Below are positions 5,629 through 32,225 of a stretch of DNA of 34,912 nucleotides, in pieces. A program made the translations under genes and the position numbers. The stretch spans positions 1 through 34,912 of the forward strand of contig OMVX01000040.1 of assembly GCA_900314605.1 (NCBI GenBank), in the 5' to 3' direction. A model generated the notes under the pieces. The model searched no databases. It was given only the letters and a program-made list of their open reading frames with translations, and was not told where the DNA came from. The stretch is from an uncultured Methanobrevibacter sp. Lineage in GTDB: Archaea; Methanobacteriota; Methanobacteria; Methanobacteriales; Methanobacteriaceae. Position 1 is the stretch's first letter. Each line of letters starts with the position of its first letter.

Positions 5629-5656
5629 AGTATTCCTAAAAAAAAAGTAATTTATA

Positions 5657-6320: not shown

Positions 6321-6366
6321 AATATACCCTCTATTTTATTTTATAAATACCTGTAGTATAATCACT

Positions 6367-8096: not shown

Positions 8097-8281
8097 AAGT
8101 GTTAAATTTAAAATAAAATAGTAACAAGTCATATTTTCCAAATAACACAGAAAATAATTATAGAGATTTAATAAAAGAATAATAAATAGAAAATAAGAGA
8201 TAAAACATTAAAAAACTAAACTTAGAATTTACAATAAATTATAAAATCACTATCCGATGTACAAATAAAATTTTTTATTAA

Positions 8282-8440
8282 ACCCATTAATAACTACAGC
8301 ACCCCCAAGTAGTTATTTTGGGTCTTAGATTAATGAACAATTCATCAACTTAACTAACCTAAACAAATCACCCTACCCCCTTTAAAGGGTGACTTGTATT
8401 AACTTAGTTGTATTACTATTCACCATTAAACAAGTTTTTT
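8282..8440. ncRNA. Candidate structured RNA with two C/G-rich-loop hairpins
   Basis: This gene-free stretch is clearly richer in GC than its surroundings and folds into two ordered hairpins. Hairpin 1: ACCCA 8282-8286 pairs with TGGGT 8319-8323, and ATAACTAC 8290-8297 pairs with GTAGTTAT 8309-8316, with an 11-nt loop containing CACCCCC. Hairpin 2: AACTAA 8352-8357 with TTAGTT 8404-8409, CAA 8364-8366 with TTG 8394-8396, and TCACCCT 8368-8374 with AGGGTGA 8386-8392, with an 11-nt loop starting ACCCCC. A small ATGAA/TTCAT hairpin lies between them. A T6 run at 8435-8440 could end a plus-strand RNA. The promoter-like block at 8506-8552 would instead drive a minus-strand RNA with GGGGG loops. No open frame covers the stretch, and I recognise no known riboswitch. 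The flanks, 8097-8281 and 8441-8505, are plain AT-rich sequence, apart from a hairpin pairing AAAACAC with GTGTTTT near 8458-8488. Confidence 0.45.
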
Positions 8441-8505
8441 AAAGTATATTAAATTGCAAAACACTAAAAAAAAAACTTAATGTGTTTTAGGCATATACTA
8501 TAATA

Positions 8506-8552
8506 TGACATAATTAGTATATAAATGTTTTGCTAAAATATGTCAATATTAA
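8506..8552 (-). promoter_or_regulatory. Repeated promoter-like block, copy 1
   Basis: A 47-bp block running TGACATAATT ... TATATAAA ... ATGTCA ... ATATTAA. It is closely matched by the block at 8988-9035. Read on the minus strand it contains TTTATATA (8525-8518), an archaeal TATA box, which would place a start near 8495 and transcribe toward the structured hairpins. TGACAT and ATGTCA form an inverted pair flanking the box and could be an operator. Confidence 0.4.
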
Positions 8553-8640
8553 TAAAAAAAATATTGAAAAGATTATTATAAATAAATAATATAAGAAAAT
8601 AAAATTAAAAAATAATAAATATTAGGAAAATATTAAAATA

Positions 8641-8898
8641 TTAATCATTACTTTTTACTCCATATCTTCCTTCTAATAATTCTATATCACAACCAACCTC
8701 ATCAGCGATTCTAAGTGCACTTTCAAGATCAACTATACCCCATAAAAAACCAGCATCTAAAACTCTTTTTTTAAGATTAAGTAAATCCTTATCATAAATT
8801 TCCTTTTTGACCAATTTATTATGAACCCTATAAGACCATCTTACAGGTTTATCCTCAACATAATCAATCTTATACACCCTATATAAACCAGTACTCAT
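8641..8898 (-). CDS. Hypothetical small basic protein (85 aa)
   Basis: The reading frame opens five codons earlier (ATG at 8913), but those codons are the ribosome site itself: TTGGGGTG lies directly before the ATG at 8898, so I choose that start (MSTGLYRVYK). The protein is soluble and has alternating strand and helix character. Conserved-looking aromatic residues include VRWSYRVHNK and LDAGFLWGIVDLESA. I do not recognise the family; it may be one of the DUFs confined to Methanobacteriaceae. Its promoter is probably the 8988-9035 block, which gives a leader of about 75 nt. The same block is repeated in front of the structured stretch downstream. Confidence 0.65.
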   Translation of the reverse strand: MSTGLYRVYKIDYVEDKPVRWSYRVHNKLVKKEIYDKDLLNLKKRVLDAGFLWGIVDLESALRIADEVGCDIELLEGRYGVKSND

Positions 8899-8987
8899 AA
8901 TACACCCCAACATATGTAAATTAATCTTATCAAAAATAAGAGATATTTAATCTAATTAATATTAAATCAAATAACATAATAAATATT

Positions 8988-9035
8988 TGACATAATAATA
9001 TATAAATATTTCCAATAAAATAATGACAATATTAA
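8988..9035 (-). promoter_or_regulatory. Repeated promoter-like block, copy 2, upstream of the 8641 gene
   Basis: This matches the 8506-8552 block over about 47 positions. TTTATATA on the minus strand at 9006-8999 is a good archaeal TATA box, and TGACAT and a TGACAATATTAA tail flank it. A start near 8975 would give the 8641-8898 gene a leader of about 75 nt. The remainder of the 8899-9244 gap is AT-rich with nothing else recognisable. Confidence 0.45.
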
Positions 9036-9244
9036 CTACACATCTAATCCATTACAAATTAAGATTATCCTAAAAATAGATCAAATCAGCAAAAAAAATA
9101 TTAAAAAATTAATGATAAAAAAAGTTATAGAATAAAAATAAGTTTATAATTTCTATAATTTTAAAATAAGTAACAATAATAAATAAAAATAAAAATAGAA
9201 AGTAAATAAATAAAAAATAGGATTTAAAAGAAAATCAATCCACT

Positions 9245-9607
9245 TTATGTTTTTTTTGCATGTGGAATAAAACCAATTAAACTAAGTATAGAAGCAATAA
9301 AAAAGACAATTAACATAGTGAAATTAATTTTATAATAATAAAACACACCTATTAATATAATCCCAATACTCAGTACAATAGACAATAAAGCATCTGAACG
9401 ATTATACTGTGCCTCTGATCTGGAAGAAAAATAAACATAAACTAAAGCAATAAAAAAAACAGCAGTAAAAAACCTATAATCAGTAATATTTTTAAAAAAC
9501 AAGTATTCTAAAACTATAGAAATAAGAAGTATCATTGAAGATAAATAAATTAACATCTTTTGATAAATACTGTAACCTGGTTTAGTTCTAAATAATTCAT
9601 TAGCCAT
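9245..9607 (-). CDS. Small four-helix membrane protein (120 aa), paralogue of 34303-34701
   Basis: Four hydrophobic segments at about residues 18-38, 43-60, 72-89 and 92-112 predict an integral membrane protein with a short cytosolic N-terminus. It aligns with the protein at 34303-34701. Both have GYS..QK.LIY.SS at the start of helix 1, a charged stretch with SR.E or SDE after helix 2, and end in F-x-PHA followed by a short basic tail. The family and role are unknown. A GAGGT ribosome site supports the ATG. It lies at the edge of the accessory region, with its paralogue beyond the opposite edge. Confidence 0.7.
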   Translation of the reverse strand: MANELFRTKPGYSIYQKMLIYLSSMILLISIVLEYLFFKNITDYRFFTAVFFIALVYVYFSSRSEAQYNRSDALLSIVLSIGIILIGVFYYYKINFTMLIVFFIASILSLIGFIPHAKKT

Positions 9608-9680
9608 ATTTTAACCTCTAAACTTAAAAAAATAAAAATAATAATCTAATATTAATTCTATAAATAATATTATAAATCAT

Positions 9681-10190
9681 TTATTCTCTACTTTTATTAG
9701 AATAATAATCTTTAACTGATTTTGAATAATCATTTAATAATTGATAACGTTCTACATTAGAAAATTCTAATTTAAATAAATCAAATTCAGCAATATAAGC
9801 AGTATACTCTTCTATAAATTCATTAATACCCTCTTTATTTAATTTAGTAAATGATACAACATTGAATTTTTCAATCAAATTAAGTTTATAATCAACTAAT
9901 CTTAACTTACTTTCAAGAAGTTCATCTACTAAAAGGAGTATAAATTTGTAAATAGACTCTTGCCTAAAAATCTTATAAATATAGTTTGCAAACTCCTTAA
10001 AATCATTATATTCATCAACAATAATATATTCTGTTTCAAGAAAACTTAAAACATAGTTAATGTTTAATTCGATTAACTCAAAGCTTCCACTATCCCAGAA
10101 AATAAAAGGACCCTTAGATGAAGCTATTAATTGATTATTAATATTAATTAAATTACAAATAGACTCCCTATACTGATTAGCATAATTCAT
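9681..10190 (-). CDS. Hypothetical soluble protein (169 aa)
   Basis: I do not recognise the family. The protein is acidic, mostly helical, rich in Leu, Ile and Asn, and has no membrane segment. Motifs such as GPFIFWDSGSFELIELNINY and FNVVSFTKLNKEGINEFIEEYTAY are distinctive but not diagnostic. A GTGAT ribosome site precedes the ATG. It is upstream of the 9245-9607 membrane protein (73-bp gap, same strand) and the two may be co-transcribed. Its start lies 130 bp from repeat copy A, the left edge of the accessory region. Confidence 0.6.
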   Translation of the reverse strand: MNYANQYRESICNLININNQLIASSKGPFIFWDSGSFELIELNINYVLSFLETEYIIVDEYNDFKEFANYIYKIFRQESIYKFILLLVDELLESKLRLVDYKLNLIEKFNVVSFTKLNKEGINEFIEEYTAYIAEFDLFKLEFSNVERYQLLNDYSKSVKDYYSNKSRE

Positions 10191-10320
10191 ATTATCACAA
10201 TAAAAAAAGAATATGATGTTTTAAAAACTATGTTTAATAAATTTAAATATATTTTAAAAAATAAGATATATAAAAATTCCTACTTAATGTTAAAAATACT
10301 TATTTTACAAACAAATAAAC

Positions 10321-10357
10321 GTTTAATTTAATTCTTTAAACATCTATTTTACGAAAC
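10321..10357 (+). repeat. Dispersed 37-bp repeat, copy A
   Basis: It begins GTTTAATTTAATTCTTTAAA and ends ATTTTACGAAAC, identical over 37 bp to copies B and C. The first 21 bases contain the inverted pair GTTTAA/TTAAAC. The MATE pseudogene begins about 10 bp further on, in mid-gene, so this copy marks its 5' breakpoint. Confidence 0.85.
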
Positions 10358-10367
10358 AAAAAGAGCA

Positions 10368-11262
10368 ACACGGGCAGTGCTTTTAAGTTCAATTTAAATG
10401 TAATATTGGATCCCCTATTTATTTATACCTTTAATTTAGGAATGAAAGGTGCTGCACTATCAACAGTCTTATCTGTTTTAATTTCTTGTATAATAATGGC
10501 TTATTGGCTATGGATTAAAAAGGATAACTATCTTGAATTAACATATAAAAATTTAAAATTAGATTTTAATATTATAAAAGAAATTATTGCTCTTTCAATC
10601 CCTGCTACATAGAAACAACAGTAGTTGCAATATTAGCTTTTTACAAATTTATTTATTATACAAGTGTTTAATCATATATCAGTAGCAGTATTTACATCCT
10701 CAATGAAAATAGTTCAATTTACAACTATACCATTAAATGCTAATCAACAGCACTTTTAACAGTTGCAGGTGTTGCTTATGGTGCTAATAATTTTAATAAC
10801 TTAAAAACTGCACATTCTTATTCATTAGAATAGGTTTTCTATTAGCCATAATATCAGCTAGTATAATGATTATATTCTCATCACCTATTGCAACAATCTT
10901 TTGTTATTCCAGTAAAAGTATAGGATTAACACCTCAAATGCATCAACAATATGTATATTAAGTTTATATGTTATAGCAATTTCTCATGGGTTAATGTCAT
11001 CTTCACTATTTAAAGCAATTGGCAAAGGACCATATTGTTTAATACTCACTATTATAAGAGCACTTTTACTAGAGATAGTGTGCGCATATTTATTCTGTTT
11101 TATATTTGGATGGGGTTTAATTGGAATATATGCAGGTTTAAACTTCAGAGGTTTTTTAGATTCAGCAGTTTGATATATATGGACTAAAGTATTATTATTA
11201 ACAAATTAGAACATAAACATTTTAAAGAATATATTCATGAAAAGAGGACCCACAAGTAATTT
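10368..11262 (+). pseudogene. MATE efflux transporter, C-terminal half only, decayed
   Basis: Translation resumes directly after repeat A in the middle of a MATE protein: K-R-A-T, then ILDPLFIYTFNLGMKGAA. This aligns with the middle of the intact-frame MATE at 12388 (KRATIAIAVTAILNIILDPI). The match continues through several frames: LWIKKDNYLELTYKNLK, then FTSSMKIVQF, QLQVLLMV, then GLMSSSLFKAIGKGPY and FGWGLIGIYAGLNF. At least four frameshifts or stops interrupt it, and the first half of the protein is missing. It was a proton- or sodium-coupled drug/cation exporter with 12 helices. The longest open piece (10406-10612) is not a gene in its own right. The 3' part of this relic contains segments that the 12388 copy lacks. 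Confidence 0.8.
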
Positions 11263-11316
11263 TTACAAAATTTAATTCAAATTTAAATATTTAAGCAATT
11301 ATAGAAAAAATTTAAC

Positions 11317-12102
11317 TTAAATATTAAAAAATTCTTTAGTGTTTTTAGTAACTTGGTCTGCAAGTAGCTCACAATCAATATCCATTTCATAAGCTATTCT
11401 ATTTAAAATATGAGGCAAATATGTTGGTTCATTTCTATGTTTTTTAGGTTTAGGTTTTAAATCCCTAGGTATAAGAAATGGACCATCAGTTTCAATCATT
11501 AATCTCTCGGGAGGAATATTTTTTACAGCTTCTCTTAATTCATCACCACGACGTTCATCACATATCCAACCTGTAACACCTATATAACATCCTAGTGAAA
11601 GATAATCTTCAACTTCATATTTATCTCCTGTAAAACAATGAACTACAGATTTTTTCGCCACATCTGGAAATTGTCTAAGTATTTTCGAAAAATCAGAGTA
11701 TGATTCTCTATCATGTAGAAATACAGGCATTTGAAGTTTATCTGCTAATTCTTATTGATTTTTAAACCATTTTCTTTGAATATTTTGGGGTGAAAAGTTT
11801 CTATTATAATCAAGGCCACATTCACCAATTGCAACTACAGATTCGTTTTTTGCTAAATCTTCTAATATATTTAATGTATTTTCATCACAATTTTTAGCAT
11901 CATGAGGATGAACACCTGCTGTTGAATATAAAACACCAGGATATTTAGATGCAAACTCAGATGCTTCAATACTTGATTTAATACTAGATACTGTGATAAT
12001 TGCTTTTTCAACACCCCCTTTAACCCCATTTTTTATAATATCTTGCCTATCTTTATTATAGGATTTGTGCATTAAATTTAATCCAATGTCTATAAGTTTC
12101 AT
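11317..12102 (-). pseudogene. tatD: TatD-family metal-dependent hydrolase, broken by one stop codon
   Basis: The two halves are in the same frame and together give 261 residues, the usual length of TatD (260 in E. coli). Family motifs are present: DIGLNLMHKSYNKDR, STAGVHPHD, AIGECGLDYNRNFS, PVFLHDRES, VHCFTG, IGVTGWICDERRG, IETDGPFLIPRDL and RRNEP-like HRNEPTYLPHIL. A single TAA at 11752-11754 follows WFKNQ. TatD of E. coli has Leu at this position (FVAQL), and TTA to TAA is one base change. TatD proteins are two-metal nucleases with 3'-5' exonuclease activity. All other catalytic motifs remain, so the break looks recent. A GTGAG site precedes the ATG. It is divergent from the MATE gene at 12388. 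Confidence 0.85.
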
Positions 12103-12387
12103 AATCTCACATTACCATTACTGCAAATATTTAATTTTTAAATCTAATATATACGAGTAATAAAATTAATATAATTTTAAATATTGTTCAATTTATATAA
12201 ATAAGTATTAAATGTTTATTTGCGTATAAATATTTAATAAAATATTATAATGCTTATAAAAATTATTTTACCTTATTATAATTATTATTAAGATTTATAT
12301 AATATAATTTAATTAAATAAATATATAATTGATTTGAAAATTTATTGTTATTATAAAAATTAATGAAATTTAATTGGGTTAAGTTAA

Positions 12388-13488
12388 ATGAGTGATAATA
12401 AAATTAATAAAAGAAATATTGAAATGATTACAGGAGATCCTAAAAAGGCTATTATAAAATTAAGTATCCCTATGATGCTTTCTATGTTTTTAATTATGTT
12501 GTATAATATAGCAGACAGTGTATGGGTAGTTGGATTAGGTCCAGATGCACTTGCAGCTTTAGGATTTATAACTCCTCTATTTGTGGTACTTGTAGGCCTT
12601 GGAAATGGTATAGGTGCTGGAGCAAACTCATTAATTGCAAGATTCATCGGAGCTAATAATCATAAAAAAGCAAACAATGCAGGATTTCATGCTATACTAT
12701 TATGTATAGTTATTTCAATTGTATCTACTCTATTAATAATAGGATTTATGAAACCTATTTTAATAATGATGGGTGTAGGCCATACAATCAAATATGCAAT
12801 GGATTATAGTCATATCATATTTTCATTCTTAATAATATTTGTTTATGCAGGTGTTGCATCAGCAATATTTAGATCTGAAGGAGATATGAAAAGAGCAACA
12901 ATTGCAATTGCTGTTACAGCTATTTTAAATATTATACTAGACCCCATATTTATTTATTTTTTACATTTTGGAATTAGTGGAGTTGCTTGGGCAACTGTAA
13001 TATCTGCTAGTATTTCATCAATTATAATGACATATTGGATATGGGGAAAAAAAGACCTTTATCTTGACTTATCACCTAAAAACTTCTCATATTCTAGTAA
13101 ATTAATAATAGAAAATTTACAGGTAGCAATTCCATCTACAGTTGAATGTCTTATATTTTCAGCATTAATTATAATTATTAATTATTTACTTTTTTTTGTT
13201 TCAGATACAAATGGAGTTGCAGTATATACTGCATCTATGAGGATAGTGCAAATTGCTATTATACCATTAACGGGTATAGGAACTGCAGTTTTAACAACTG
13301 CAGGTGTTGCATATGGTGCACGTAATCCTGAAAACCTAAAAACCGCCCATACTTTTTCCATAAAATTAAGTTTTCTTTTTGCAATAATAATTGGGGCAAT
13401 AATGATAATATTATCTAAACCGATATCTTCCATATTTAGTTATACTGATGCAAGTTCTCATTTGGCACCACAAATTTCACTTATTTAA
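12388..13488 (+). CDS. MATE family efflux transporter, C-terminally truncated
   Basis: The 366-residue membrane protein starts with MITGDPKKAIIKLSIPMMLSMF-type sequence and has PDALAALGFITPLFVVLVGLGNGIGAGANSLIARFIG, both typical of MATE exporters that use H+ or Na+ gradients to expel cationic compounds. About ten helices are present. Normal MATE proteins have about 450 residues and twelve helices. The frame ends at APQISLI shortly after helix 10, and the related relic at 10368-11262 shows the missing ending (GLMSSSLFKAIGKG and onward). The next MATE gene begins 60 bp later, so a deletion may have removed this tail. It may be non-functional. A GGGTT stretch precedes the ATG. The 12103-12387 gap is the divergent promoter region. 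Confidence 0.8.
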   Translation: MSDNKINKRNIEMITGDPKKAIIKLSIPMMLSMFLIMLYNIADSVWVVGLGPDALAALGFITPLFVVLVGLGNGIGAGANSLIARFIGANNHKKANNAGFHAILLCIVISIVSTLLIIGFMKPILIMMGVGHTIKYAMDYSHIIFSFLIIFVYAGVASAIFRSEGDMKRATIAIAVTAILNIILDPIFIYFLHFGISGVAWATVISASISSIIMTYWIWGKKDLYLDLSPKNFSYSSKLIIENLQVAIPSTVECLIFSALIIIINYLLFFVSDTNGVAVYTASMRIVQIAIIPLTGIGTAVLTTAGVAYGARNPENLKTAHTFSIKLSFLFAIIIGAIMIILSKPISSIFSYTDASSHLAPQISLI

Positions 13489-13548
13489 TTATATTATTCA
13501 CATTATTTTATATCCTAAAAATAGGATTAAAGTATATTGGTGTGGAAA

Positions 13549-15270
13549 ATGATTTATGAAAGAGATTATGAATTTTTAAAAAATAAATTTAATGAAATTT
13601 TGGTTCCTACCATATTAATGGCAATGTCTGATAAGGTTTGTCAACTGGTAGATATATTTATTATAAGTTTTGTACTTACATCATCTGCTTTAAGTATTTT
13701 TGGACTTGTACTCCCATTGAATTATTATAATGGATTATTTTATGTAATTTTTGGTATTGGAGGTAACCTAATGGCTGTAAGGGCTAAAAGTAAATTCAAA
13801 GATGAGGAATCCAATTTATATTTCACTGTAGCCATATTGTCTGCAATTTTCATATCTTCACTCTTTGTATTCTTCATTTTTACATTCTCTGGTCCTGTAT
13901 TGAATAATTTTTTGACAGCCGATTTAATTCAACCTACTCAAACCTTTCTTTATTCAGTATGTTTGTCTTATCCATGTATTTGTTATATACAGGTTTTATC
14001 TAACTTTGCAAGGGCAGACGGATTTCCAAAATTGACTTTTTATACTTTTCTTATTGCCAATATATTGAACCTTCTACTGGATATAGTATTTCTAATATTT
14101 TTAAATATGGGTTTAGTAGGAGCAGGATTAAGTACTACAATAGGTTTTTTTATAGGGGCATTATTCATGACCGTCATACTTAGAAGAAACAATTTCTCAT
14201 ATAATTTAGTAAGTGTAAATAAGTTAAATCTTAAAAAAGTCCTTACATTGATTAAAAATATTGTATTAAATACTCCCGAAATTATTGGAAAAACGTTTGT
14301 TTCTACACAGATTTTAATAATAAACGGATTATTATTAACATACGATGGTCCAGTAGGTCTTATTGCCTATACGATTTATGATAACAGTGAAACTATAGTA
14401 TATATGTTTTTATCAGGTATTTCAAAGACGATAACCCCAATAATTGCCTTGTTTTATAAAGAAGATGATTTTGATGCAGTGGACTTTGTTGCAAAACATG
14501 GGTTGAAACTTTTACTGATTTTGGTCATACCATTCGGTATTGTCTTCATGACTATGCCAGAAATTATATTGACACTTTTCAGTGTTAAAGATCCCCTACA
14601 GGCGGAATATATTTCATTCATAATTAAAATTACTTCAATAGGTTTAATGGGACGTTGTATAATATTATTTACATCATATTATGCTCAGGCGGTTCAATTC
14701 AATAAAATTGCAGGGACTTTAAGATTTTTACAGGAATTTATCATCCCTATAGGAGGTTCCCTATTATTCTTAATGTTTATTGGATCATTCGGAATTTGGT
14801 TAGCAATCCTTCTATCTGAAATATTACCACTTCTTATCTATGTAATTTATGTAAAATATAAACAGAAAAAGGATAAAAAAATTAAAGGATATTTCCTTCT
14901 TGAAGAGGATGATGGAGTACACTTAACCCTTAAAAAAGATGAAATTAATGAAACTGTCCCTAAAATTTTTAATAATCTAAATCAATATAATTCTACACAT
15001 ATAGATAAAATTAAAAGTTCAATAATTTCTTTAAGTCAGAACATATTTGATGTACAGAAAAACATTGATGAGATTGACGTTTTTGCAAGATTTCATGAGG
15101 ATAAAATTTCACTCATCCTTACAGATGATGGAGCGATATATAATCCAATAGAAAATAATGATACTAATATTCAAAAAGACTATATGAAACAAATAAATGA
15201 GTTAAATGGAAATACAACTTATAATAAAGTTTTAGGATTTAATAGAACTGGATTAGAATTTGCTTTATAA
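13549..15270 (+). CDS. MATE-like transporter with C-terminal HATPase-like domain
   Basis: The protein has 573 residues from the ATG at 13549, which has GGTG about 6 nt upstream; the frame opens at a TTG at 13537, which I reject. Residues 1-440 form a 12-helix MATE/MOP-type transporter (LVPTILMAMSDKVCQLVDIFIISF; LPLNYYNGLFYVIFGIGGNLMAVR). After the last helix comes a cytosolic tail of about 130 residues. The tail shows a helix with N (SIISLSQNIFDVQKN), a strand-turn DKISLILTDDGAIYNPIE and an ending YNKVLGFNRTGLEF. This order resembles the N and G1 boxes and C-terminal strand of RsbW/SpoIIAB-type HATPase_c domains, but the second glycine-rich box is not obvious. The function is inferred: an exporter with a sensory or ATP-binding-like tail. 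It follows the truncated MATE gene closely on the same strand. Confidence 0.75.
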   Translation: MIYERDYEFLKNKFNEILVPTILMAMSDKVCQLVDIFIISFVLTSSALSIFGLVLPLNYYNGLFYVIFGIGGNLMAVRAKSKFKDEESNLYFTVAILSAIFISSLFVFFIFTFSGPVLNNFLTADLIQPTQTFLYSVCLSYPCICYIQVLSNFARADGFPKLTFYTFLIANILNLLLDIVFLIFLNMGLVGAGLSTTIGFFIGALFMTVILRRNNFSYNLVSVNKLNLKKVLTLIKNIVLNTPEIIGKTFVSTQILIINGLLLTYDGPVGLIAYTIYDNSETIVYMFLSGISKTITPIIALFYKEDDFDAVDFVAKHGLKLLLILVIPFGIVFMTMPEIILTLFSVKDPLQAEYISFIIKITSIGLMGRCIILFTSYYAQAVQFNKIAGTLRFLQEFIIPIGGSLLFLMFIGSFGIWLAILLSEILPLLIYVIYVKYKQKKDKKIKGYFLLEEDDGVHLTLKKDEINETVPKIFNNLNQYNSTHIDKIKSSIISLSQNIFDVQKNIDEIDVFARFHEDKISLILTDDGAIYNPIENNDTNIQKDYMKQINELNGNTTYNKVLGFNRTGLEFAL

Positions 15271-15354
15271 ACATTGAAATTATAAATCATTCTATAATAT
15301 GATATACTCAAGCTAAAATGTTATTAAATACAGTAAAGATTAAATAAATTTAAT

Positions 15355-15532
15355 ATTTTTAAGTCAATATTCATCAGTTAAGTCTAATTGAAGATGTATG
15401 GAGAATAATTAAAACAATATTAATGGTATATAGTGAGTATTAATTGAATTGTTTGAAACTAAATATTATGAAAAAATTGTCTCAAAAACATTTTATGAAA
15501 ATTATTTAGACCAATTTGGTATCAATTTTTAG
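15355..15532 (+). pseudogene. Transposase remnant, IS630-like C-terminal end
   Basis: Two neighbouring frames together read SLIEDVWRIIKTI (a degraded form of the N-x-IE-x-VW motif around the last catalytic Glu of IS630/DDE transposases), then IELFETKYYEKIVSKTFYENYLDQFG and a TAG stop at 15530-15532. Frameshifts and stops separate the parts and nothing upstream of the catalytic Glu region survives. No terminal repeats were identified. The remainder of 15271-15637 is AT-rich with no gene. Confidence 0.65.
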
Positions 15533-15637
15533 AGAAAAACTATATTATAAAAATAAATGTTGAAATTGGAATCTATGCATGATTAGAAGATCTGAAAACA
15601 TTATCGATTTTATGCTTAACAATTTCATGATTGTATC

Positions 15638-16502
15638 TCAACTTGGACCTAAATATTTCCTTGGGTCAAATACTGATGGTTCACTGTTAAAAATTCTTCT
15701 TATTTCTCCAGTCATAGCTAAACGTAAGTCTGTATCAACATTGATTTTTGTTACTCCTTCTTGTCCAGCTTTTCTTAAAATATCATCAGGAACACCCTTT
15801 GCTCCAAGAATATCTCCACCATTATTGTTACACATTTCGACAAGTTTAGGAATAACTGATGATGCACCATGAAGAACAATAGGAGTATCAGGTAATTTTT
15901 CTTTAACATTTTTTAAAATATCAAATCTTAATTTTGCATCTCCTTTAAATTTATATGCACCATGACTGGTTCCAATTGCAATCGCCAATGAATCACATCC
16001 TGTTTTTTGAACAAATTCATAAGCCTGTGTAGGATCTGTATATTTTGCATTGTCCTCTGTTACATTAACTTCATCTTCTACTCCTGCCAAAGTTCCAAGT
16101 TCAGCCTCTACAACAACACTTTTAGAATGAGCATAATCGACTACTTTTTTGGTTATTTCAACATTCTTTTCAAATGGGTATTTAGAAGCATCAATCATTA
16201 CTGATGTAAAACCTGAATCAACACAGTTTTTACAAGTTTCGAAATCTAAACCATGGTCTAAATGTAATGCTATTGGAATGTCTGTAGTTTCAACAGCAGC
16301 TTCAACCATCTTGATTAAATAATCTATTTTAGCATAATTAATAGCACTAGGAGATGCTTGTAAGATAACAGGTGATTGTCGTTCATTTGCAGCATCCGTA
16401 ATTCCTTGTACAAATTCCATATTATTGATATTGAAAGCCCCTATTGCATATTTATTTTTCATAGCTTTTTTCAAACATTTTTTCTGTAGTTACTAATGGC
16501 AT
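15638..16502 (-). pseudogene. fba: Class II fructose-bisphosphate aldolase with one frameshift near the start
   Basis: The gene reads MPLVTTEKMFEKA, then KNKYAIGAFNINN, once one extra base is removed from the six-A run (minus strand; 16466-16471). That gives 287 residues, a normal class II aldolase length. The enzyme cleaves fructose-1,6-bisphosphate to DHAP and glyceraldehyde-3-phosphate with a zinc ion. Visible motifs are HLDHG (catalytic Asp about 82, metal His 83), VEAELGTLAG, GTSHGAYKF, LHGASSV and KINVDTDLR. The ATG at 16502 has a strong GAGTGATT site. The uncorrected frame could only start at an internal TTG without such a site. Bacterial-type class II aldolase is unusual in methanogens, so transfer is likely. 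The break could be a real mutation, a slippage switch or a sequencing error. Confidence 0.8.
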
Positions 16503-16772
16503 AATAATCACTCTTTAAAATTTATTGTATACATTTAATATATTTGGAGAGGGTCTGAATTTATTCAAATAAAATTCAAGATAATTATTTATTTTTATTA
16601 TTTATCATATCCATATTGGATAGTTTGTAAAAATACAATTCAAATTAATTTTTTTAATAAAAAAAAAATTTATTAAAATCGATGAATCTAAATAATATGT
16701 GTTATATATATTTATTTGAAAATAAAAATCAAACACTGATTAAATTTAGATATTAAAAACCCAATTTATTTT

Positions 16773-16809
16773 GTTTAATTTAATTCTTTAAACATCTATT
16801 TTACGAAAC
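16773..16809 (+). repeat. Dispersed 37-bp repeat, copy B
   Basis: It is identical over 37 bp to copies A and C. It lies between the aldolase start and the end of the gene at 17004, inside a 500-bp gene-free stretch (16503-17003) that is otherwise plain AT-rich sequence. Confidence 0.85.
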
Positions 16810-17003
16810 GCAAAACAATTATAAATATTAGATTTAATAAACCTTATCAGAAATTAACACACATTTTTTTTATTATACCTGATTTATAATTTTATTTTCT
16901 ATTAAATTGATTATTATTAATTTATATTTAATAGTTAATATATTGTTCAATATTTTTTTTTACTGACTATATTATTTCCAGTTAGATTGTTTAATAGTGT
17001 TAT

Positions 17004-18377
17004 CTAATTATCCAATTCATCAATTTTTTCTTTAAGGTAGTCTAACTCCTGATATATTGGCCTTAAATCACCATCATATCGATTAAGAAGAGAATTAATT
17101 AAATTGATACGTTCATATAATTCATTTAGAGAATATTCTTTATATAAATGATCATTAAGTGATGAAAATGCATGTCCCATATTAAATATATCATCACATC
17201 CTTTTACTCCCCAAAAAGCATATTCACCTGGATTTAAATGGAAAAGTAGCGAAATTTTATCATCTGCAGAGAATCCTGTAACTTTTTCACTTACTGACCT
17301 AACAATACTATAAGCTACATAAGTATGTGCATTTATTCCTCCATTAAACATTTCACTAATTCTACAACCTTTTAATATCAAAGCGTCAGAATCTAAAATT
17401 GCAGATGCATGTTCTTTAGAAAGTTTTCTAAGATTAGCAGCAGCCATCTTAGGACCTTTTTTTGAAACTTTAAATCTATTTTCTTGTTTAAAATTATTTA
17501 ATACTGGTGATATACTCCTATTAATATCTTCAAATGATGCATCATTACCAAAGCATCCATTTTTTGGAATCAGAGTTATATTAATATCATAATCGGTCAG
17601 TAATTTTTCAATAACTAAAAGATCAAAATAGGACTCAATAATATCATCAGTCATCCATACGAGATTAAAATCATTTTTAGATTTAATTGAATCAAGTAAT
17701 TGATTAAAATCAAAAATTGGAAAATTTCTAGAATTATATTCATTAATAAGCCTATCGAAATATATTTCTGAAGCTTCTTTTAAATCATAATCCATCAAAT
17801 CTCCCATTGGAATACCATCATTTTCATGATCTGATGCTGCAGCTGTTGCTCCTTTCAAATCAAGGCCAGACAAACCACTTATTATAGAAATTTTAAGAAT
17901 TTCTTCAATTGAAAAATCCATAGATATAATCTTATTAATAACCAAAGGCATAATCTTATGTGCGAAATCATTAAATTTTTTTGCTGTTGAAAAGTTCTCA
18001 CCTAATTCACCTGTTAATGTAAATACAGATATTCTCCTAAGAACATCAACAACTTCCTGATTAAATATCTTATTTTCATCACCACAGACTTCCAGTAATA
18101 TTTTAAAGTTTTTAATACCATAATCTACAGCATCATCAATTAAATCTTCATCAATCCAACTACTTTCAAATTGCTCCTTAAGCATATTTCCAATCCACTC
18201 ATCAAAAGATAAATTAGTGAAAAATAGGGTTTTATTACCATTTAACTTTTCAAGAGCAGTGAAAGATTCGGGATTAAAAGACTTATCAAATAAGACAAAA
18301 CAAGAATCTGTATGATATTGGCATAGAAAATCATCTAAGTGTTCAGAAGCAAAATCTTTTGTAAGAATTTTCAACAT
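17004..18377 (-). CDS. ARMT1/DUF89-like protein (457 aa)
   Basis: The C-terminal half carries a block reminiscent of DUF89/ARMT1-type damage-control phosphatases: KVSKKGPKMAAANLRKLS, then SDALILKGCRISEMFNGGIN, then VRSVSEKVTGFS and PGEYAFWGVKG, with an earlier GCFGNDASFEDI. In that family, metal-binding Asp and Asn residues hydrolyse phosphate from damaged or side-product metabolites. The N-terminal half is helical and acidic and not recognised. There is no membrane segment. A GGTGA ribosome site gives the start. It is a single gene bounded by repeat copies B and C. The family call rests on motif order only; a role in sugar or nucleotide clean-up is inference. Confidence 0.5.
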   Translation of the reverse strand: MLKILTKDFASEHLDDFLCQYHTDSCFVLFDKSFNPESFTALEKLNGNKTLFFTNLSFDEWIGNMLKEQFESSWIDEDLIDDAVDYGIKNFKILLEVCGDENKIFNQEVVDVLRRISVFTLTGELGENFSTAKKFNDFAHKIMPLVINKIISMDFSIEEILKISIISGLSGLDLKGATAAASDHENDGIPMGDLMDYDLKEASEIYFDRLINEYNSRNFPIFDFNQLLDSIKSKNDFNLVWMTDDIIESYFDLLVIEKLLTDYDINITLIPKNGCFGNDASFEDINRSISPVLNNFKQENRFKVSKKGPKMAAANLRKLSKEHASAILDSDALILKGCRISEMFNGGINAHTYVAYSIVRSVSEKVTGFSADDKISLLFHLNPGEYAFWGVKGCDDIFNMGHAFSSLNDHLYKEYSLNELYERINLINSLLNRYDGDLRPIYQELDYLKEKIDELDN

Positions 18378-18447
18378 ATATTTTCACCTTTAATTATAAT
18401 AATTAAAAAAAAAAACTATTTTATAAAAGAAACTAATTATAAAGTAT

Positions 18448-18561
18448 TTAAAGAGTGTCCAGCAAATTAGTGTTTATTTACATAATATATTCTTATTATG
18501 ATAACAAAGAATTGTTTGATTTTTATAAAAAATAAATTTTATAATTTTGACAAACACCCTA
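18448..18561. mobile_element. Possible MITE-like relic with weak inverted ends
   Basis: The left end reads GAGTGTCCAGCAAATTA. The right end, read inward, is GGGTGTTTGTCAAAATTA. They match at about 10 of 14 leading positions. No coding sequence lies inside and no clear target duplication was found. Length (114 bp) and position next to two clear MITEs support a relic. Confidence 0.3.
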
Positions 18562-18615
18562 AAATACACTTATTTATATATTCTTAACAATATTAATAAA
18601 TATTACCAATTATAC

Positions 18616-18808
18616 GGCACTTTCAAAAACTTGTGTGATAACTTTTATTTCCATTTTTTTACCTTAGAAAAATTAAGGTTTAAAAAGTTCAAACATAAAT
18701 ATAGAGCTTTTATTAATTTTTAAATTGAAAATAAATCATAAATCGATGGATAATTTTTGGGTTGTGTAACTTGTAAAAATTAAAATCACATAAGTTTTTG
18801 AAAGTGCC
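18616..18808. mobile_element. MITE-like element 1 with perfect 8-bp target duplication
   Basis: The left terminal repeat begins GGCACTTTCAAAAACTTGTG. The right end is its inverse with one mismatch over about 24 bp. It is flanked on both sides by AATTATAC (18608-18615 and 18809-18816), a perfect 8-bp target duplication. The 193-bp interior has no gene. GGCAC ends and an 8-bp duplication resemble the IS6 family, so a full IS elsewhere may mobilise it; this is inferred. Confidence 0.85.
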
Positions 18809-18819
18809 AATTATACTTA

Positions 18820-19064
18820 GGCACTTTCAAAAACTTGTGTGATAAAGTTTATTTCCATTTTTTTTTACCTTAGAAAAATTAAGGTTTAATAAGTTCAAAC
18901 ATACACATAGAGCTTTTGTTTTAATATTACAAAAATAATATATAAGTTAAACTTAATATATTTAATTATAAATTTTTAAATTAAAAATAAATAATTATTT
19001 GACGATAAATTTTTGTGATGTATAATTTGTAAAAATTCAAATCACACAATTTTTTGAAAGTGCC
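18820..19064. mobile_element. MITE-like element 2, diverged sister copy
   Basis: It has the same GGCACTTTCAAAAACTTGTG left end and inverse right end, and the first 80 bp match element 1 closely. The 245-bp interior differs and is longer. Flanks TATACTTA (18812-18819) and TATGTTTA (19065-19072) agree at 6 of 8, as for an older target duplication. It starts 11 bp after element 1 and its right flank runs into repeat copy C. Confidence 0.8.
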
Positions 19065-19067
19065 TAT

Positions 19068-19104
19068 GTTTAATTTAATTCTTTAAACATCTATTTTACG
19101 AAAC
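19068..19104 (+). repeat. Dispersed 37-bp repeat, copy C
   Basis: It is identical to copies A and B. It directly abuts MITE-like element 2 (3 bp away), whose right target flank overlaps the first bases of the repeat. Confidence 0.85.
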
Positions 19105-19281
19105 TTAATGATTTTTTTATTTCTAAATTTAGTTATATTCTAATATATTTTACAAAAAAATCTTAAGGATTGATAAAGTCGTTTTTTATCCAAAAATTTA
19201 AATAATAATAATAATACTAATATAAAACAAAATTGATAATACACTCCACTTAGGATTAAAGCATTATAGGAAAGAGAATAA

Positions 19282-19745
19282 ATGGCTAAGAAAATTAATT
19301 TCAGTTTATTTTTAATGAGTTTTTCATTGTCAACATTTTTAAGTATTGTTGGAGTAATTCCTTTAATTTCAAAATATTTTAGTGTTCCAATTACTATGGG
19401 TGGCCTTTTTGCCTGTTTATTTGCTTTAATATTAAGTGTTACATGTTTGTTTTTACCATCTATTTTTTCTAAATATGAAAGAAAGAAATTTTTCATAATC
19501 TGTTTACCAGTTTTTCATATTAAGCAGTTTCTTACAGAGTTTCATCAATAATTTATATCTTGCTTTAATCATTAGATTATTACCGGCATTCTTCTATTCC
19601 TCAGCAATCAGTATTACTTTAACAATAATGGGAGAATTAGATCCGAAAAATGTGGATAAAGTTGTTTTAGGTGTGTCTGCAGGAAGTATATTAGGATTGT
19701 CAATATCCACCCAAATCGGAGTGACATTCGGATATCATAATTTTC
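19282..19745 (+). pseudogene. MFS transporter, N-terminal part, frameshifted and truncated
   Basis: The start is intact: AGGAAAG precedes ATG, then MAKKINFSLFLMSFSLSTFLSIVGVIPLI. Helices 1-2 match MFS efflux proteins. The frame breaks near 19497 and continues in another frame with VYQFFILSSFLQSF, ALIIRLLPAFFYSSAISITLTIMGEL and VLGVSAGSILGLSISTQIGV. About 155 residues (five helices) remain of a normal 380-400. It ends where it collides head-on with the radical SAM relic around 19730-19745. The minus-strand frame at 19140-19496 is a shadow. Confidence 0.75.
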
Positions 19746-20119
19746 ATATTTTTTCCTGTATTCTTTAAAGGTATTATTGTAAGCATTTACATATATGTAA
19801 TTTAAACCATTGGTAAATAATTCTTCAATTTTTTTATGAGTTAATAATTTTCCATTTGTATATGATAATAAGACAGTGTCGGGATTATTTTTATGAAGTA
19901 TATTAACTATCTGATTAAGTTCCGGATTTAATAAAGGTTCTCCTCTAAGAGCAAATTAATTACACGTAATTTATTATCAAATGCTTTAGAAATTGATTCT
20001 GCTGTTTCTATTGTCATATAATCATATTGTTTTTTTTCAAGGACAATTTGATAACAAAAGTCACATTTATTATTACAGCCAAATGTCGGTTCTATATGTG
20101 CATTTATTGGATAAAACAT
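19730..20119 (-). pseudogene. Radical SAM protein, N-terminal part, frameshifted and truncated
   Basis: A strong AGGAGGG site precedes the ATG. The protein starts MFYPINAHIEPTFGCNNKCDFC, with the C-x3-C-x2-C cluster that binds the 4Fe-4S centre of radical SAM enzymes. After a frameshift near 19950 the other frame reads ALRGEPLLNPELNQIVN, the GEP motif that binds SAM, and then ALSYTNGK-type sequence. About 130 residues remain, and the barrel's second half and any SPASM domain are missing. The original substrate is unknown. Confidence 0.75.
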
Positions 20120-23812: not shown

Positions 23813-25048
23813 TTATAACTCATCACCACATAAAAAATCAATGATGTTTATATGTTTAACACCACTTTTAGAAAAATCATGGCTTTCTGTTGTAATTAAT
23901 ATTGTTTCATATTTATCCTGAATTTTTAATAATGGGCTTATTTCACGGTTTAATGTTTTTTCATTTGTTAACCTGTAAGAAACTTGGATATATTTGTATT
24001 TACCTGATTTTTTACATACGAAATCTACTTCGCTCTTGTCTTTATTTCTTCCAACATTAACCTCATATCCTCTTCTTAAAAGTTCAATAAACACAATATT
24101 TTCTAAAATTTTGGTTACTTTTAAAATATTTTCTTCAATTAATCCATGATGAAATCCATGGTCTGTTAAATAATATTTTCCAAGAATTTTCATTTCTTTT
24201 TTACCTTTTAATTCAAAACATTTACATTTATTGATTAAAAATGACTGTTTCAAATATTCATTATACCTTAACAATGTATCTTCAGATGTGTATATATTAT
24301 TACTTTTTAAGTAGTTCTTTATACTTTTAGATGAAAAAATCTCTCCAGTACTACTAATCATATATCGTGTGAAACGTTGCAATAAATCTACATTGCTAAT
24401 TTTAAAACGTGAAACAATATCCTCAAATAATATTGAATTATAAATATCTTTAAGAGCAACTTTTTTAAACTCATCACTACCTAATGAAAATATACCTGGC
24501 ATCCCACCAAAGTTAAAATACTCATCATATAATCGATTAATCGAATCATTAGTTAATTCAATACCATCAACTTCATTTTTATATTGTAAAAATTCCTTAA
24601 ATGAAAATGGATATACATTTATTGTAAGGTATCTTCCTGTAAGTAGTGTTGATAACTCTCCAGATAGTAATTTTGAATTAGATCCAGTAATGTATATGTC
24701 TGAATCTATAGAAACCCTATAACTGTTAATAGATTTTTCCCAGCCCTTAACTTCCTGAATCTCATCAAAAAACAGATAAACCTTTCCTTCAACATCCTTA
24801 ATTTTATCATAAACAATTTCATCCAATTCTTTTGAATGACCAATATTATTATATTCTCTTGATTCAAATGAGATGAAAATAATATTATCGTCATTAACTC
24901 CCCATGATTTAAGTTCATCAATAATATTATACATTAAATTTGTTTTACCTGACCTTCTAATCCCCGTATACACTTTAACAAAATCAGAGCCAACGTAATC
25001 CTTTAAATCCTTAATATAATCATAACGTTTAATTAATTTATTTACCAT
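23813..25048 (-). CDS. AAA ATPase with DUF4143 C-terminal domain
   Basis: The 411-residue protein has an N-terminal AAA_14-type ATPase: Walker A GIRRSGKTNLM at about 29-39, Walker B VYLFFDEIQEVKGWE at about 90-104, and sensor-like ITGSNSKLLSGELSTLLTGR. The C-terminal DUF4143 part has LRRGYEVNVGRNKDKSEVDFVCKKSGKYKYIQVSY, where the D-x-V and Q-V pattern resembles a PD-(D/E)XK nuclease-like core. Such proteins are common in mobile and accessory DNA of anaerobes and archaea, and their function is unknown. The ATG follows AGGTTGAT. It seems intact although its neighbours are relics. Confidence 0.88.
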   Translation of the reverse strand: MVNKLIKRYDYIKDLKDYVGSDFVKVYTGIRRSGKTNLMYNIIDELKSWGVNDDNIIFISFESREYNNIGHSKELDEIVYDKIKDVEGKVYLFFDEIQEVKGWEKSINSYRVSIDSDIYITGSNSKLLSGELSTLLTGRYLTINVYPFSFKEFLQYKNEVDGIELTNDSINRLYDEYFNFGGMPGIFSLGSDEFKKVALKDIYNSILFEDIVSRFKISNVDLLQRFTRYMISSTGEIFSSKSIKNYLKSNNIYTSEDTLLRYNEYLKQSFLINKCKCFELKGKKEMKILGKYYLTDHGFHHGLIEENILKVTKILENIVFIELLRRGYEVNVGRNKDKSEVDFVCKKSGKYKYIQVSYRLTNEKTLNREISPLLKIQDKYETILITTESHDFSKSGVKHINIIDFLCGDEL

Positions 25049-25525: not shown

Positions 25526-25557
25526 GTTTCGTAAAACAATTATTTAAAGAATTAAAT
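25526..25557 (-). repeat. Dispersed repeat, copy D (diverged)
   Basis: Read on the minus strand it matches copies A-C, with ATAATTGTTTTACGAAAC in the second half. It overlaps the stop codon of the DUF998-like gene, so that gene's last codons and the repeat share sequence. Confidence 0.7.
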
Positions 25558-26139
25558 GGAACGTAAATAAACACCTGTAATAAAACTCCAGAGAATTAAT
25601 GTATAAATAGATAATCTTTCGAAGATAGGCCTATAAATATAATCTGTATTGAAAAATAGAAGTAAATAACCAATTAATCCAATTATTCCCAAAACTAAAG
25701 TGATTTTCTGATAGGATTTAAATCTATCCATAGATTTTGAAATAATTAGTAACAGTATATTACCTCCTAAAATAGTCATATTTGCACCTAAAATATGATA
25801 ATAAGATGTAAATGAACTTTTAGCATGTATTAAACCAACAATTATAAAACCAATACCGCATATCAATGTGAAAATATAATATGTAATTTTGTGTTTAATG
25901 ATATAATCCTTGAATTTATAGAAGCTAGAAAAAAGTATAATTAAACCAAGTAGAATAAACGCTGAATTCATCAAGAAAAAATATGGGGAGTCTGAATTAG
26001 GAATTCCCAAAGTTGAAATGGTGTATTCGAGATAAGTGTTGACTAATGTGTCATTAAATGTAAATGCACAAAGAGTCTCAGCAATTATATACCATAAACT
26101 TCCTATAATCAACATTATACCTGCGGTTTTAGATTTCAT
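25552..26139 (-). CDS. DUF998-like membrane protein (195 aa)
   Basis: Six hydrophobic segments with the DUF998 pattern: YTISTLGIPNSDSPYFFLMNSAFILLGL after helix 1, VGLIHAKSS in the middle, and a final ERLSIYTLILWSFITGVYL. DUF998 proteins are six-helix membrane proteins of unknown function, often found in clostridia and archaea. The frame begins at a GTG at 26148 without a ribosome site; the ATG at 26139 has GTGA upstream and is preferred. The stop lies inside repeat copy D, while copy E lies 54 bp before the start in the same orientation. The gene is thus bracketed by two direct repeats, like a one-gene cassette. Confidence 0.7.
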   Translation of the reverse strand: MKSKTAGIMLIIGSLWYIIAETLCAFTFNDTLVNTYLEYTISTLGIPNSDSPYFFLMNSAFILLGLIILFSSFYKFKDYIIKHKITYYIFTLICGIGFIIVGLIHAKSSFTSYYHILGANMTILGGNILLLIISKSMDRFKSYQKITLVLGIIGLIGYLLLFFNTDYIYRPIFERLSIYTLILWSFITGVYLRSI

Positions 26140-26192
26140 ATTGTTCACTTATAAACTATTTTAATAATAAAATATAAGATTCTGAATTTATT

Positions 26193-26228
26193 GTTTCGTA
26201 AAAAAGTGTTTAAAGAATTAAATTAAAC
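26193..26228 (-). repeat. Dispersed repeat, copy E
   Basis: Read on the minus strand it starts GTTTAATTTAATTCTTTAAA, then CACTTTTTTACGAAAC. It keeps the terminal GTTT and AAAC. It follows the terminator of the 45-residue gene directly and precedes the DUF998-like gene. Confidence 0.8.
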
Positions 26229-26262
26229 AAAAAAGGTAGCACTAATATTTATTAGTGAGCTA
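26229..26262 (-). terminator. Hairpin-T6 terminator after the 45-aa gene
   Basis: CACTAAT 26240-26246 pairs with ATTAGTG 26251-26257 around a 4-nt loop, with a TAG/CTA extension. On the minus strand it is followed by T6 (26234-26229), which runs straight into repeat copy E. Confidence 0.65.
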
Positions 26263-26289
26263 ACAAGACCTCATCAAAAAATTAAAATT

Positions 26290-26427
26290 TTATGCACGTT
26301 CAACTGCTTCGCAAAATTCTTCAAAAGTAATTTTTCCTGAAAACAATAATTGTTCAAGCCGATCACTTTCAGTATGATCAAACCAATTTTCACAATCATC
26401 ATCTTCATAATCCTTTTTATTATTCAT
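26290..26427 (-). CDS. Small acidic protein (45 aa)
   Basis: The protein reads MNNKKDYEDDDCENWFDHTE, then SDRLEQLLFSGKITFEEFCE and AVERA. It has no membrane segment, is strongly acidic, and probably has two short helices. A GGAGA site lies 11 nt before the ATG and a hairpin-T6 terminator follows 30 bp after the stop, so this is likely a real gene. The family is unknown. Size and position would suit an antitoxin, an anti-defence protein or a small regulator, but nothing shows which. Repeats E and F bracket this segment. Confidence 0.6.
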   Translation of the reverse strand: MNNKKDYEDDDCENWFDHTESDRLEQLLFSGKITFEEFCEAVERA

Positions 26428-26475
26428 ACTTAGAAATTCTCCTAAATCTTATGTATTAATTTAGTATTTTATTAT

Positions 26476-26638
26476 TTATAAAATTATCCAAAGAACCTCA
26501 GCACCAAAATTTTCTGTTCTTTTAACTATTTTTTTCATCATATTCCCATAATCTTTTATTGCCTTATTAAATTAAATTAAAACTTTCAAAAGCATTATCT
26601 TTAAATTCAGTGACAAAAATATCTTCATAATATGTACT
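26476..26638 (-). pseudogene. C-terminal fragment of an unknown gene, broken by TTTAA expansion
   Basis: The minus strand reads YEDIFVTEFKDNAFESFN, then, after removing a 10-bp TTTAATTTAA insertion, KAIKDYGNMMKKIVKRTENF and GAEVLWIIL before TAA. The join restores one clean frame (AGT TTT AAT AAG GCA). The fragment begins at repeat copy F, so its 5' part is missing. I do not recognise the family. Confidence 0.5.
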
Positions 26639-26668
26639 GTTTAATAAAATAAGTGTTTAAAGAATATG
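26639..26668 (-). repeat. Dispersed repeat, copy F (degraded)
   Basis: On the minus strand: ATTCTTTAAACACTTATTTT, then ATTAAAC. The outer GTTTAATTTA part is lost and ACGAAAC has become ATTAAAC. It lies at the 5' breakpoint of the fragment at 26476-26638. Confidence 0.6.
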
Positions 26669-26715
26669 AAAAATAAAGCATTTTCATTATACACTCTAAC
26701 GATTTAGAAAAAAGA

Positions 26716-26807
26716 GGGGTTTGCAAGGATTTGAACCTTGAACTTAGGATTACTCCTATCAAATTATTTCTGAAGTCATAAATGATACCTGATTACACAA
26801 CAAACCC
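26716..26807 (-). tRNA. tRNA-like gene, type II (long variable arm), aberrant anticodon arm
   Basis: The acceptor stem GGGTTTG/CAAACCC is perfect (26807-26801 with 26723-26717). The T arm CAAGG-TTCAAAT-CCTTG is perfect and the variable arm TAGGA-GTAA-TCCTA is perfect. The D arm keeps A14, GG and A21 with a three-pair stem, as in Ser and Leu tRNAs. T-rich sequence follows. The anticodon arm is odd: TTAT/ATAA pairs with a G-A mismatch, leaving an 8-nt loop ACTTCAGA. CTTCAGA as a 7-nt loop would give anticodon UCA but no good stem; the CAG reading (Leu) gives a 3-of-5 stem. It may be a degenerate Leu/Ser tRNA or an unusual suppressor-like tRNA. It lies between repeats F and G. Confidence 0.55.
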
Positions 26808-27031
26808 ATTTAAAATTAAGAGAGTACTAAACCAGTTTAAAAGTTTAATTCACCGTTTTTTATTCCATTTGTGATAAAATTATGGAAGTTTGTCTATTGA
26901 ATATTTCTCAACTTTGTATATCTAATAAAAAGTAATGAACGATTTAAGCAAGGATAAAAAAAATTTTTTTTTGTTAGATATACATTATATAAAGATGGAA
27001 AATTAGAAAAAGAAAAAGATAAAAAAAAATA

Positions 27032-28117
27032 TTAAACAAGATAAGATAAATAATCAGCTAATAATTTATTAGAATATTTTTCATAAATTGCATCCATTTT
27101 CTTAAAATTAGGTAATTGAATACTGGAATCATCTCTAATAAGGGTTCCTTTATGTTTAGGTCTTACTTTAACCTTTTTTTCAGAGGGTAATTTCACTTTA
27201 TACAATAAAGAAAGGAAGTCTATGAGCTCCTTTTTATTTTTCATGTTTTGATATTCGGCGAATGAATTTTTATCGATTATATATTCAAATTTCTCATGTC
27301 AATCAAGCCATTCTATTAAAACACTATTATATGCTTTAATAGAATCATCATAATACTCACATTTTTGTTTAATTAATGCATCCATTTCTTGGATAGTGGT
27401 TAATAGTTTTTTGGATTTTAAAAATTCATCTCTTTTATCTTGAACACCATAATCAGCAAAAGAAAATGGAACATGATCTTCAAGTGTTATCAACTCTTCA
27501 ATATGGTCTTCTATAAATTGATGATTTAATTCAAAGCGTTTCATTTTTTCCACTTCCTCCCATATGAATAAGTCCCAATGTCCGGTAGCTTTACAATAAT
27601 CTCGGACTATACGATCTTCGGCTTCTTCCCAGGTTTCATTTTTACCAATCCAACGTTCACCTCTACCAAAAATATACCAATTACCCGATTCTACTTGATG
27701 TTTTTGATACATACGCTCCCAAATATCCTTATATTTATCATCAAATCTAATTGTAAAAAATAACCATTGTGGAGATAAAACACTAGTATCATTAATTATT
27801 TCATTGCATGTTTCTCTAAATATTCTGTGTTAATATATTCCGCTCTTTTCATTTGTAACCAACTACTCTTAATTTTATAGGTATTAAATCTTCTCCATTA
27901 GCACCTTTAACAGGTTTTCTTCCAAATTTAACTAATTCTACTTTAGATTTTTTAAGTAAAAATTCCATCTCATTTGCATAAGGAGTACATCATGAGCAAT
28001 CTTTTAGCTCATTGTTTAGTTTTAGATTTTAATAATTTCCTCATATTGGTATCAAATAAATTCTTTTAATAATAGTTATAATAACTTAATGAGTTGACTT
28101 TTTCATATGCTTTTGCC
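27032..28117 (-). pseudogene. Large unrecognised gene, 5' truncated and broken
   Basis: Starting directly after repeat G, frames join to AYEKVNSLSYYNYY, CS-stop-CTPYANEMEFLLKKS, KVELVKFGRKPVKGANGEDL, SSWLQMKRAEYINTEYLEKH, NEIINDTSVLSPQWLFFTIR, FDDKYKDIWERMYQKHQVES and GNWYIFGRGERWIGKNETWE. It then reads on to WLD-stop-HEKFEYIIDK and ends LADYLSYLV. The TGA at 27299-27301 is in frame between pieces otherwise seen as 137 and 70 residues (27299-27712 and 27032-27244), so they are one gene. Other breaks are a TGA in CS-stop-C and two frameshifts near 27800-27850. I do not recognise this protein of over 330 residues. It is soluble and Trp-rich; a plasmid or viral origin is possible but unproven. 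Confidence 0.6.
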
Positions 28118-28153
28118 TTTCGTAAAATAAGTGTTTAATAAATTGAATTAAAC
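28118..28153 (-). repeat. Dispersed repeat, copy G
   Basis: On the minus strand it starts GTTTAATTCAATTTATTAAA and ends CACTTATTTTACGAAA. It sits between the cut-off end of the ABC exporter relic (stop at 28175) and the 5'-truncated gene at 27032-28117, so it marks a double breakpoint. Confidence 0.75.
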
Positions 28154-32179: not shown

Positions 32180-32225
32180 GTTTAATTTAATTTAATTTAA
32201 TTTTTAAACACTGATTTTACAAAAC
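32180..32225 (+). repeat. Dispersed repeat, copy H, with extra TTTAA units
   Basis: It starts GTTTAATTTAATTTAATTTA and ends CTGATTTTACAAAAC. Compared with copy A it has additional TTTAA units and ACAAAAC in place of ACGAAAC. The next bases, AAAAAGAACAC, resemble the AAAAAGAGCAACAC after copy A. It lies 21 bp from the end of the FUSC gene. Confidence 0.65.

Follow-up and report, generated by a model that had tools for sequence, protein, structure and literature searches.

The four direct repeats D, E, F and G at positions 25526–28153 of the window, by which we mean the whole 34,912-nucleotide stretch of uncultured Methanobrevibacter DNA analysed here, are most probably (probability about 0.88) an old fragment, lacking a leader, of a gene array that a stand-alone Cas1-Cas2 integrase assembled. 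The structure and origin of this system are well supported, and its function we infer. Our literature search, in which a report in a subscription journal or a preprint could be missed, did not find an earlier report of such a system.

Repeats and inserts in the window

The window carries a 37-nt repeat with the consensus GTTTCGTAAAATAAGTGTTTAAAGAATTAAATTAAAC in two sets, three copies on the minus strand and copies D to G on the plus strand. When the 28-nt core of the repeat was searched at three or fewer mismatches, the window gave six matches and dinucleotide-shuffled windows gave none, and the common orientation of D to G reported in the preliminary description was upheld. Repeat D (25526–25562) is 37 nt long with 5 mismatches to the consensus, repeat E (26193–26228) is 36 nt long with one base deleted, repeat F (26639–26675) is degenerate, with 9 mismatches that fall mostly in its last 10 nt and a well-kept first 27 nt, and repeat G (28117–28153) has 4 mismatches.

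The inserts between these repeats hold minus-strand genes, and their contents agreed with what had been described. The D–E insert (25563–26192) contains an intact gene for a DUF998 membrane protein (25552–26148; Pfam PF06197), the stop codon of which (25552–25554) falls within repeat D. In the E–F insert (26229–26638), a 45-amino-acid gene (26290–26427) is followed by the inverted repeat CACTAATA...TATTAGTG, located between the 3′ end of the ORF and repeat E, where a terminator had been proposed. The F–G insert (26676–28116) combines a tRNA-Leu(CAG)-like gene (26716–26807, minus strand) with a gene running from 27032 to ~27862 that is broken by one frameshift and one stop. Among 32 tRNA matches in the genome listing this call had the lowest score (39.7 bits), and the gene is perhaps viral or decaying.

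Relatives of the E–F and F–G genes lie in array inserts of other genera. The 45-amino-acid protein shares 36% identity over 44 amino acids with a G084 gene (array insert 3), and the broken gene shares 47% identity over 87 amino acids with a G093 gene (array insert 1); part of the F–G insert is also 87% identical to DNA within an insert on contig C16. The DUF998 insert has a homolog on contig C89 (79% at the DNA level) that lacks repeats at its ends, and the similarity between the two stops at both repeat edges. Neither a leader nor cas sequence was seen beyond repeat G or beside D–G, and because of this and of its drifted repeats the D–G run reads as an old, decayed relic of an array. Upstream of repeat D, an ATPase-like protein encoded at 23813–25048 (minus strand) has a match to PDC-S01, a candidate defence family of PADLOC (1.8e-142).

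The minus-strand set forms a second array, which the preliminary description did not mention, with a first repeat at 10321–10357, a copy at 16773–16809 that is the same ATAGATG variant found in another strain, and a further copy at 19068–19104; a probable degenerate copy lies at 32189–32225 on the same strand (9 mismatches ungapped, one indel). The left flank of the first repeat is shared with the other strain: positions 9679–10319 are 97% identical to its contig IMGVR_UViG_2799112903_000004, and the match stops at the window repeat at 10321. Past the shared flank, that contig continues with a leader, a repeat, a TPR gene, a second repeat and prophage DNA, and the window strain has other genes. 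The comparison of strains for gain or loss of units, which the preliminary description had proposed, thus favours mobility. Tandem-like copies of a MITE-like element of 200–260 nt with inverted ends GGCACTTTCAAAAACTT are located at 18616–19075, and related copies were present on many island contigs and in a provirus.

The window's own draft genome (G000) gave 71 matches to a related pattern, about 70 copies, and a reversed control gave none. Among GTDB species genomes, from which the records of the window genome itself were possibly left out, the exact repeat pattern was found in one other species only, an uncultured Methanobrevibacter from reindeer; it was also found in one IMG/VR provirus contig. 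On contig C11 of G000, at least 15 near-identical repeats in the same direction extend across 10 kb and are followed by a leader and then a cas1 remnant, with inserts of 32 nt to ~1.9 kb. Other contigs of this genome, among them C16, C35, C12, C13 and C9, carry shorter series of repeats, in many cases with a variant of their own. The insert ORFs face either direction and the repeats are therefore not gene-linked regulatory sites; phage intergenic regulatory repeats were ruled out, as repeat orientation on C11 is independent of gene orientation. An Rfam search of C11 positions 1–20000 matched no family. The repeats are real and are not integron sites.

A Cas1-Cas2 module and leader beside the arrays

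A distinct group of Cas1 proteins, encoded as cas2-cas1, was found in about 35 of 139 Methanobacteriaceae genomes, where the gene-array repeats are 37 nt long and of the form GTTT...AAAC. Across 23 loci with at least two repeat copies, which include the complete single-contig genomes G023, G079, G081 and G084, the first repeat starts 111–117, 155 or 197–200 nt after the cas1 stop. Both Cas1 and Cas2 exceeded the Pfam cut-offs (Pfam/NCBIfam), and the catalytic E, H and D/E columns were invariant among the aligned Cas1s. Ten proteins encoded beside cas2-cas1 at seven loci included no Cas effector. The leader, which precedes the first repeat, is conserved, with a TTAAATA-like element ~30 nt upstream and a leader-repeat junction that is most often AGT or AGG. 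In several loci the repeats near the leader are identical and the distal copies degenerate, and the ten identical repeats of G079 are exactly 37 nt long, with sharp edges and no similarity outside them. Two draft contigs stop precisely at the first repeat, the outcome expected if repeated DNA breaks assembly.

An intact Cas1-Cas2 of this group was not found in G000. In this draft genome a broken Cas1 adjoins the last C11 repeat, and a cas2 fragment on C16 is truncated at a repeat. In G002 the cas1 of the cas2-cas1 pair is damaged, and the pair lies ~198 nt from a repeat. G001 has an intact cas2-cas1 with arrays on both sides (L094 4862–8665 and 10675 onward), which differ in repeat variant and share the same repeat orientation; the simple form of the model proposed below does not explain the second array on the other side of cas2-cas1. 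The preliminary description had suggested looking for an integrase gene next to the outermost copy. The enzyme that goes with the arrays is Cas1-Cas2 and not an integron integrase, and it is encoded on other contigs and in relatives. A similar protein is encoded near cas2-cas1 in several genomes (L160 5165–6247, L163 7452–8531, L169 5011–6093 and L167 12189–13271); the copy in L160 gave a match to the phage integrase family, and the protein may be a chromosomal Xer protein.

These genomes also contain ordinary CRISPR loci. In G000, contig C44 (L087) bears one with its own cas1 and 60 copies of a different 37-nt repeat at a period of ~73 nt. In the Cas1 tree, the ordinary CRISPR Cas1s of these genomes formed one clade (99/100) apart from all gene-array Cas1s, and wherever a regular array was found at loci of this clade its repeat period was ~71–75 nt. 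The different repeat on C44 and the separate Cas1 clade ruled out the window-type repeat as the canonical CRISPR of its genome.

Size, ends and cargo of the inserts

The inserts are gene-sized (median 752 nt, range 32–4299 nt; n = 139 inserts), and only three are shorter than 40 nt. G023 and G079 share ~96% identity over a stretch that begins 4 kb upstream and runs across cas2, cas1 and the leader; this similarity ends no more than one or two bases from where the first repeat ends, and the arrays differ beyond it. In five further species pairs similarity stops at the same place. The preliminary description had named an identical order in all relatives, with repeats diverging at the neutral rate, as evidence against cassettes; in all six pairs the array contents differ past the first repeat. 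This stop after the first repeat and the more degenerate distal repeats are comparative signs that insertion may take place at the leader end.

Insert ends are arbitrary with respect to the source, since one source stretch recurs in separate arrays with ends that are exact to the base yet differ, and in both orientations. Insert 3 of G023 and insert 2 of G079, for example, derive from the same source (98.7% identity over 834 nt), and other such cases involve G142, C16 and C12, C11 compared with the IMG/VR provirus, and the DUF998 insert of the window compared with C89. The ends weakly favour NNAA...TTNN, with a symmetric AA at +3/+4 and TT at -4/-3 (21 and 20 against 9.0 and 6.4 expected in one data set; 21 and 17 against 8.7 and 6.2 in another), counts that none of 2000 random draws exceeded. 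At one locus (L055 1089–2423, minus strand), a provirus protease/capsid-like ORF apparently ends at an array repeat as if cut.

Many inserts are viral. The commonest families were phrog_19593 (10 inserts) and the ends of MuF minor-head genes (7 inserts), followed by phrog_14507-related genes (6 inserts) and ADP-ribosyltransferase-like ends (4 inserts), and the same viral small-gene families recur across inserts of different genera. Inserts often retain the 3′ end of a viral MuF minor-head/toxin gene with an intact small gene behind it, in the position where a toxin-immunity gene would usually lie, and a phrog_19593 gene lies directly behind MuF in three viral contigs, which were found with a cargo alignment. 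Single-protein scans of viral contigs with cargo genes and Cas1 as queries gave no match, nor did one cargo protein compared by tblastn with phage records or a solved-structure search with one ADP-ribosyltransferase-like fragment. In the inserts with a piece of a toxin gene (n = 15), the repeat truncates the 5′ side in 12 and the 3′ side in none, a bias that stems partly from an ADP-ribosyltransferase profile built on 3′ pieces and that stands at 6:0 with the full-length MuF profile alone; an intact ORF lies downstream of the piece in 14 of the 15. The ADP-ribosyltransferase match itself came from one fragment (phrog_3895, 5e-8) and was weak in the other fragments.

Jamet et al. argued that small ORFs directly behind the MuF polymorphic toxin genes of temperate phages encode immunity proteins (PMC5576092), and the inserts share with these pairs a MuF 3′ piece followed directly by a small ORF. 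Here, in contrast, a host array stores the pairs in cut form, the viruses are archaeal, and the immunity role is putative. The cargo also includes genes for an SDR dehydrogenase, a MATE transporter, DUF998 and aldo/keto reductase-like proteins. Many inserts carry host-like genes or genes of unknown kind, and antiviral selection therefore does not explain all of the cargo. Acquired islands of orphan immunity genes, directed against secretion-system toxins, store immunity genes without their toxins. The gene arrays would embody the same idea, built by Cas1-Cas2 and not by other recombination.

Proposed mechanism, alternatives and meaning

Cas1-Cas2 is known as the writer of short spacers. In the mechanism we propose, the gene-array Cas1-Cas2 would take up a piece of double-stranded DNA, in many cases viral and between a few hundred and a few thousand bp long, and place it, in either orientation, where the leader meets the first 37-nt repeat. 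The repeat would be duplicated as in CRISPR spacer acquisition, with no short-spacer ruler and no guide-RNA effector, and the newest inserts would adjoin the leader as older ones drift outward and decay. Both the activity of the enzyme and this direction of array growth are what we infer from sequence comparison. The likeness to the CRISPR-Cas adaptation module extends to Cas1 and Cas2 homologs that keep the catalytic residues, a leader at one end, direct 37-nt repeats that are almost identical, differences that start on the leader-proximal side, and viral inserts. The arrays differ from CRISPR-Cas in having gene-sized, variable inserts with ORFs instead of uniform spacers of ~25–45 nt and a separate Cas1 clade, with no effector genes found beside the module in the neighbours covered.

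An ordinary CRISPR array whose spacers were later replaced or enlarged by insertions and deletions between repeats would account for the Cas1, Cas2, leader and 37-nt repeats, and recombination at repeats probably does occur too, as the truncated cas2 at the C16 repeat suggests. We nevertheless consider this origin improbable, given the scarcity of inserts shorter than 40 nt (3 of 139), the ten identical G079 repeats that all enclose 414–2623 nt, the lack of a cas effector among the tested neighbours and the separate true CRISPR of the same genomes. Dispersal of a short MITE-like repeat, inserted singly between or into genes, would fit ~70 copies over many contigs; it is very unlikely, as repeat-free homologs match one insert up to its edge and not across the repeat, and as the repeats begin at a fixed distance from cas1. 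The casposons, Cas1-solo transposons, offer another comparison, as there too Cas1-family enzymes are tied to integrating DNA that exceeds a spacer in length (PMC6977970, PMC4046053). A casposon unit has terminal inverted repeats around Cas1 and a family B polymerase, whereas here Cas2 is present, the inserts lack visible terminal inverted repeats and share the weak NNAA...TTNN end preference, and an array would grow rather than an element move itself.

Integrons and superintegrons are likewise gene-capture arrays with sites in one direction, and the preliminary description had compared D–G with them. This comparison held for gene-plus-site units in one direction; it broke down for units that carry their own site, as source DNA is cut variably and enters in both orientations. 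A tyrosine recombinase that excises and inserts circular units, each with its own site, is what this reading supposes, and the genome does contain tyrosine recombinase genes, one of them on C92 between two repeats. By eye, however, the C92 ORF (L016 2229–3269, minus strand) consists of a RelA/SpoT-like N-terminal part and a truncated phage-integrase domain. No recombinase occupies a constant place by the arrays, no integron integrase lies at one end, cassette boundaries are not fixed, as the cuts in one source fall at various points, and it is Cas1-Cas2 that lies at a fixed distance from the first repeat in 23 loci. We regard integron-like exchange as extremely improbable. The earlier remark that the site is not attC and would, if real, belong to a different system was borne out, as inspection of the 37-nt consensus found no GTTRRRY cores and the repeats are linked to Cas1-Cas2.

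What a gene array built by Cas1-Cas2 would do for its host is a separate matter. The best reading is an adaptation module that captures genes, which may serve as a protein-coded antiviral memory. As the likeliest function, to which we give roughly even odds on the sequence evidence, inserts would be expressed and would confer protein-based protection, notably through viral immunity genes from behind MuF minor-head toxin genes. It is also possible that the system is real and its cargo is random foreign DNA, serving gene hoarding or innovation, with no antiviral role. The dehydrogenase, transporter, DUF998 and reductase-like inserts speak for such cargo, yet the recurrence of viral small-gene families in different genera, and toxin-gene pieces truncated on the 5′ side that retain the next ORF, speak against it, and on balance we find random cargo rather doubtful. 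The larger proposal, that the arrays represent a second type of adaptive immunity on Cas1-Cas2, with whole viral genes, above all immunity genes against virion-carried MuF toxins, stored as a heritable, leader-ordered, protein-coding memory without guide RNA, we put forward tentatively, at slightly under an even chance.

A natural Cas1-Cas2 relative that apparently writes kilobase protein-coding inserts would link CRISPR adaptation with integron-like gene capture, and would offer an enzyme that inserts large DNA at a defined site. It makes testable whether adaptive immunity can be stored as genes rather than guides. It would also account for one way in which the main methanogens of humans and the rumen gain genes, among them probably the type strain of Methanobrevibacter smithii (G023, which we take to be M. 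smithii ATCC 35061).
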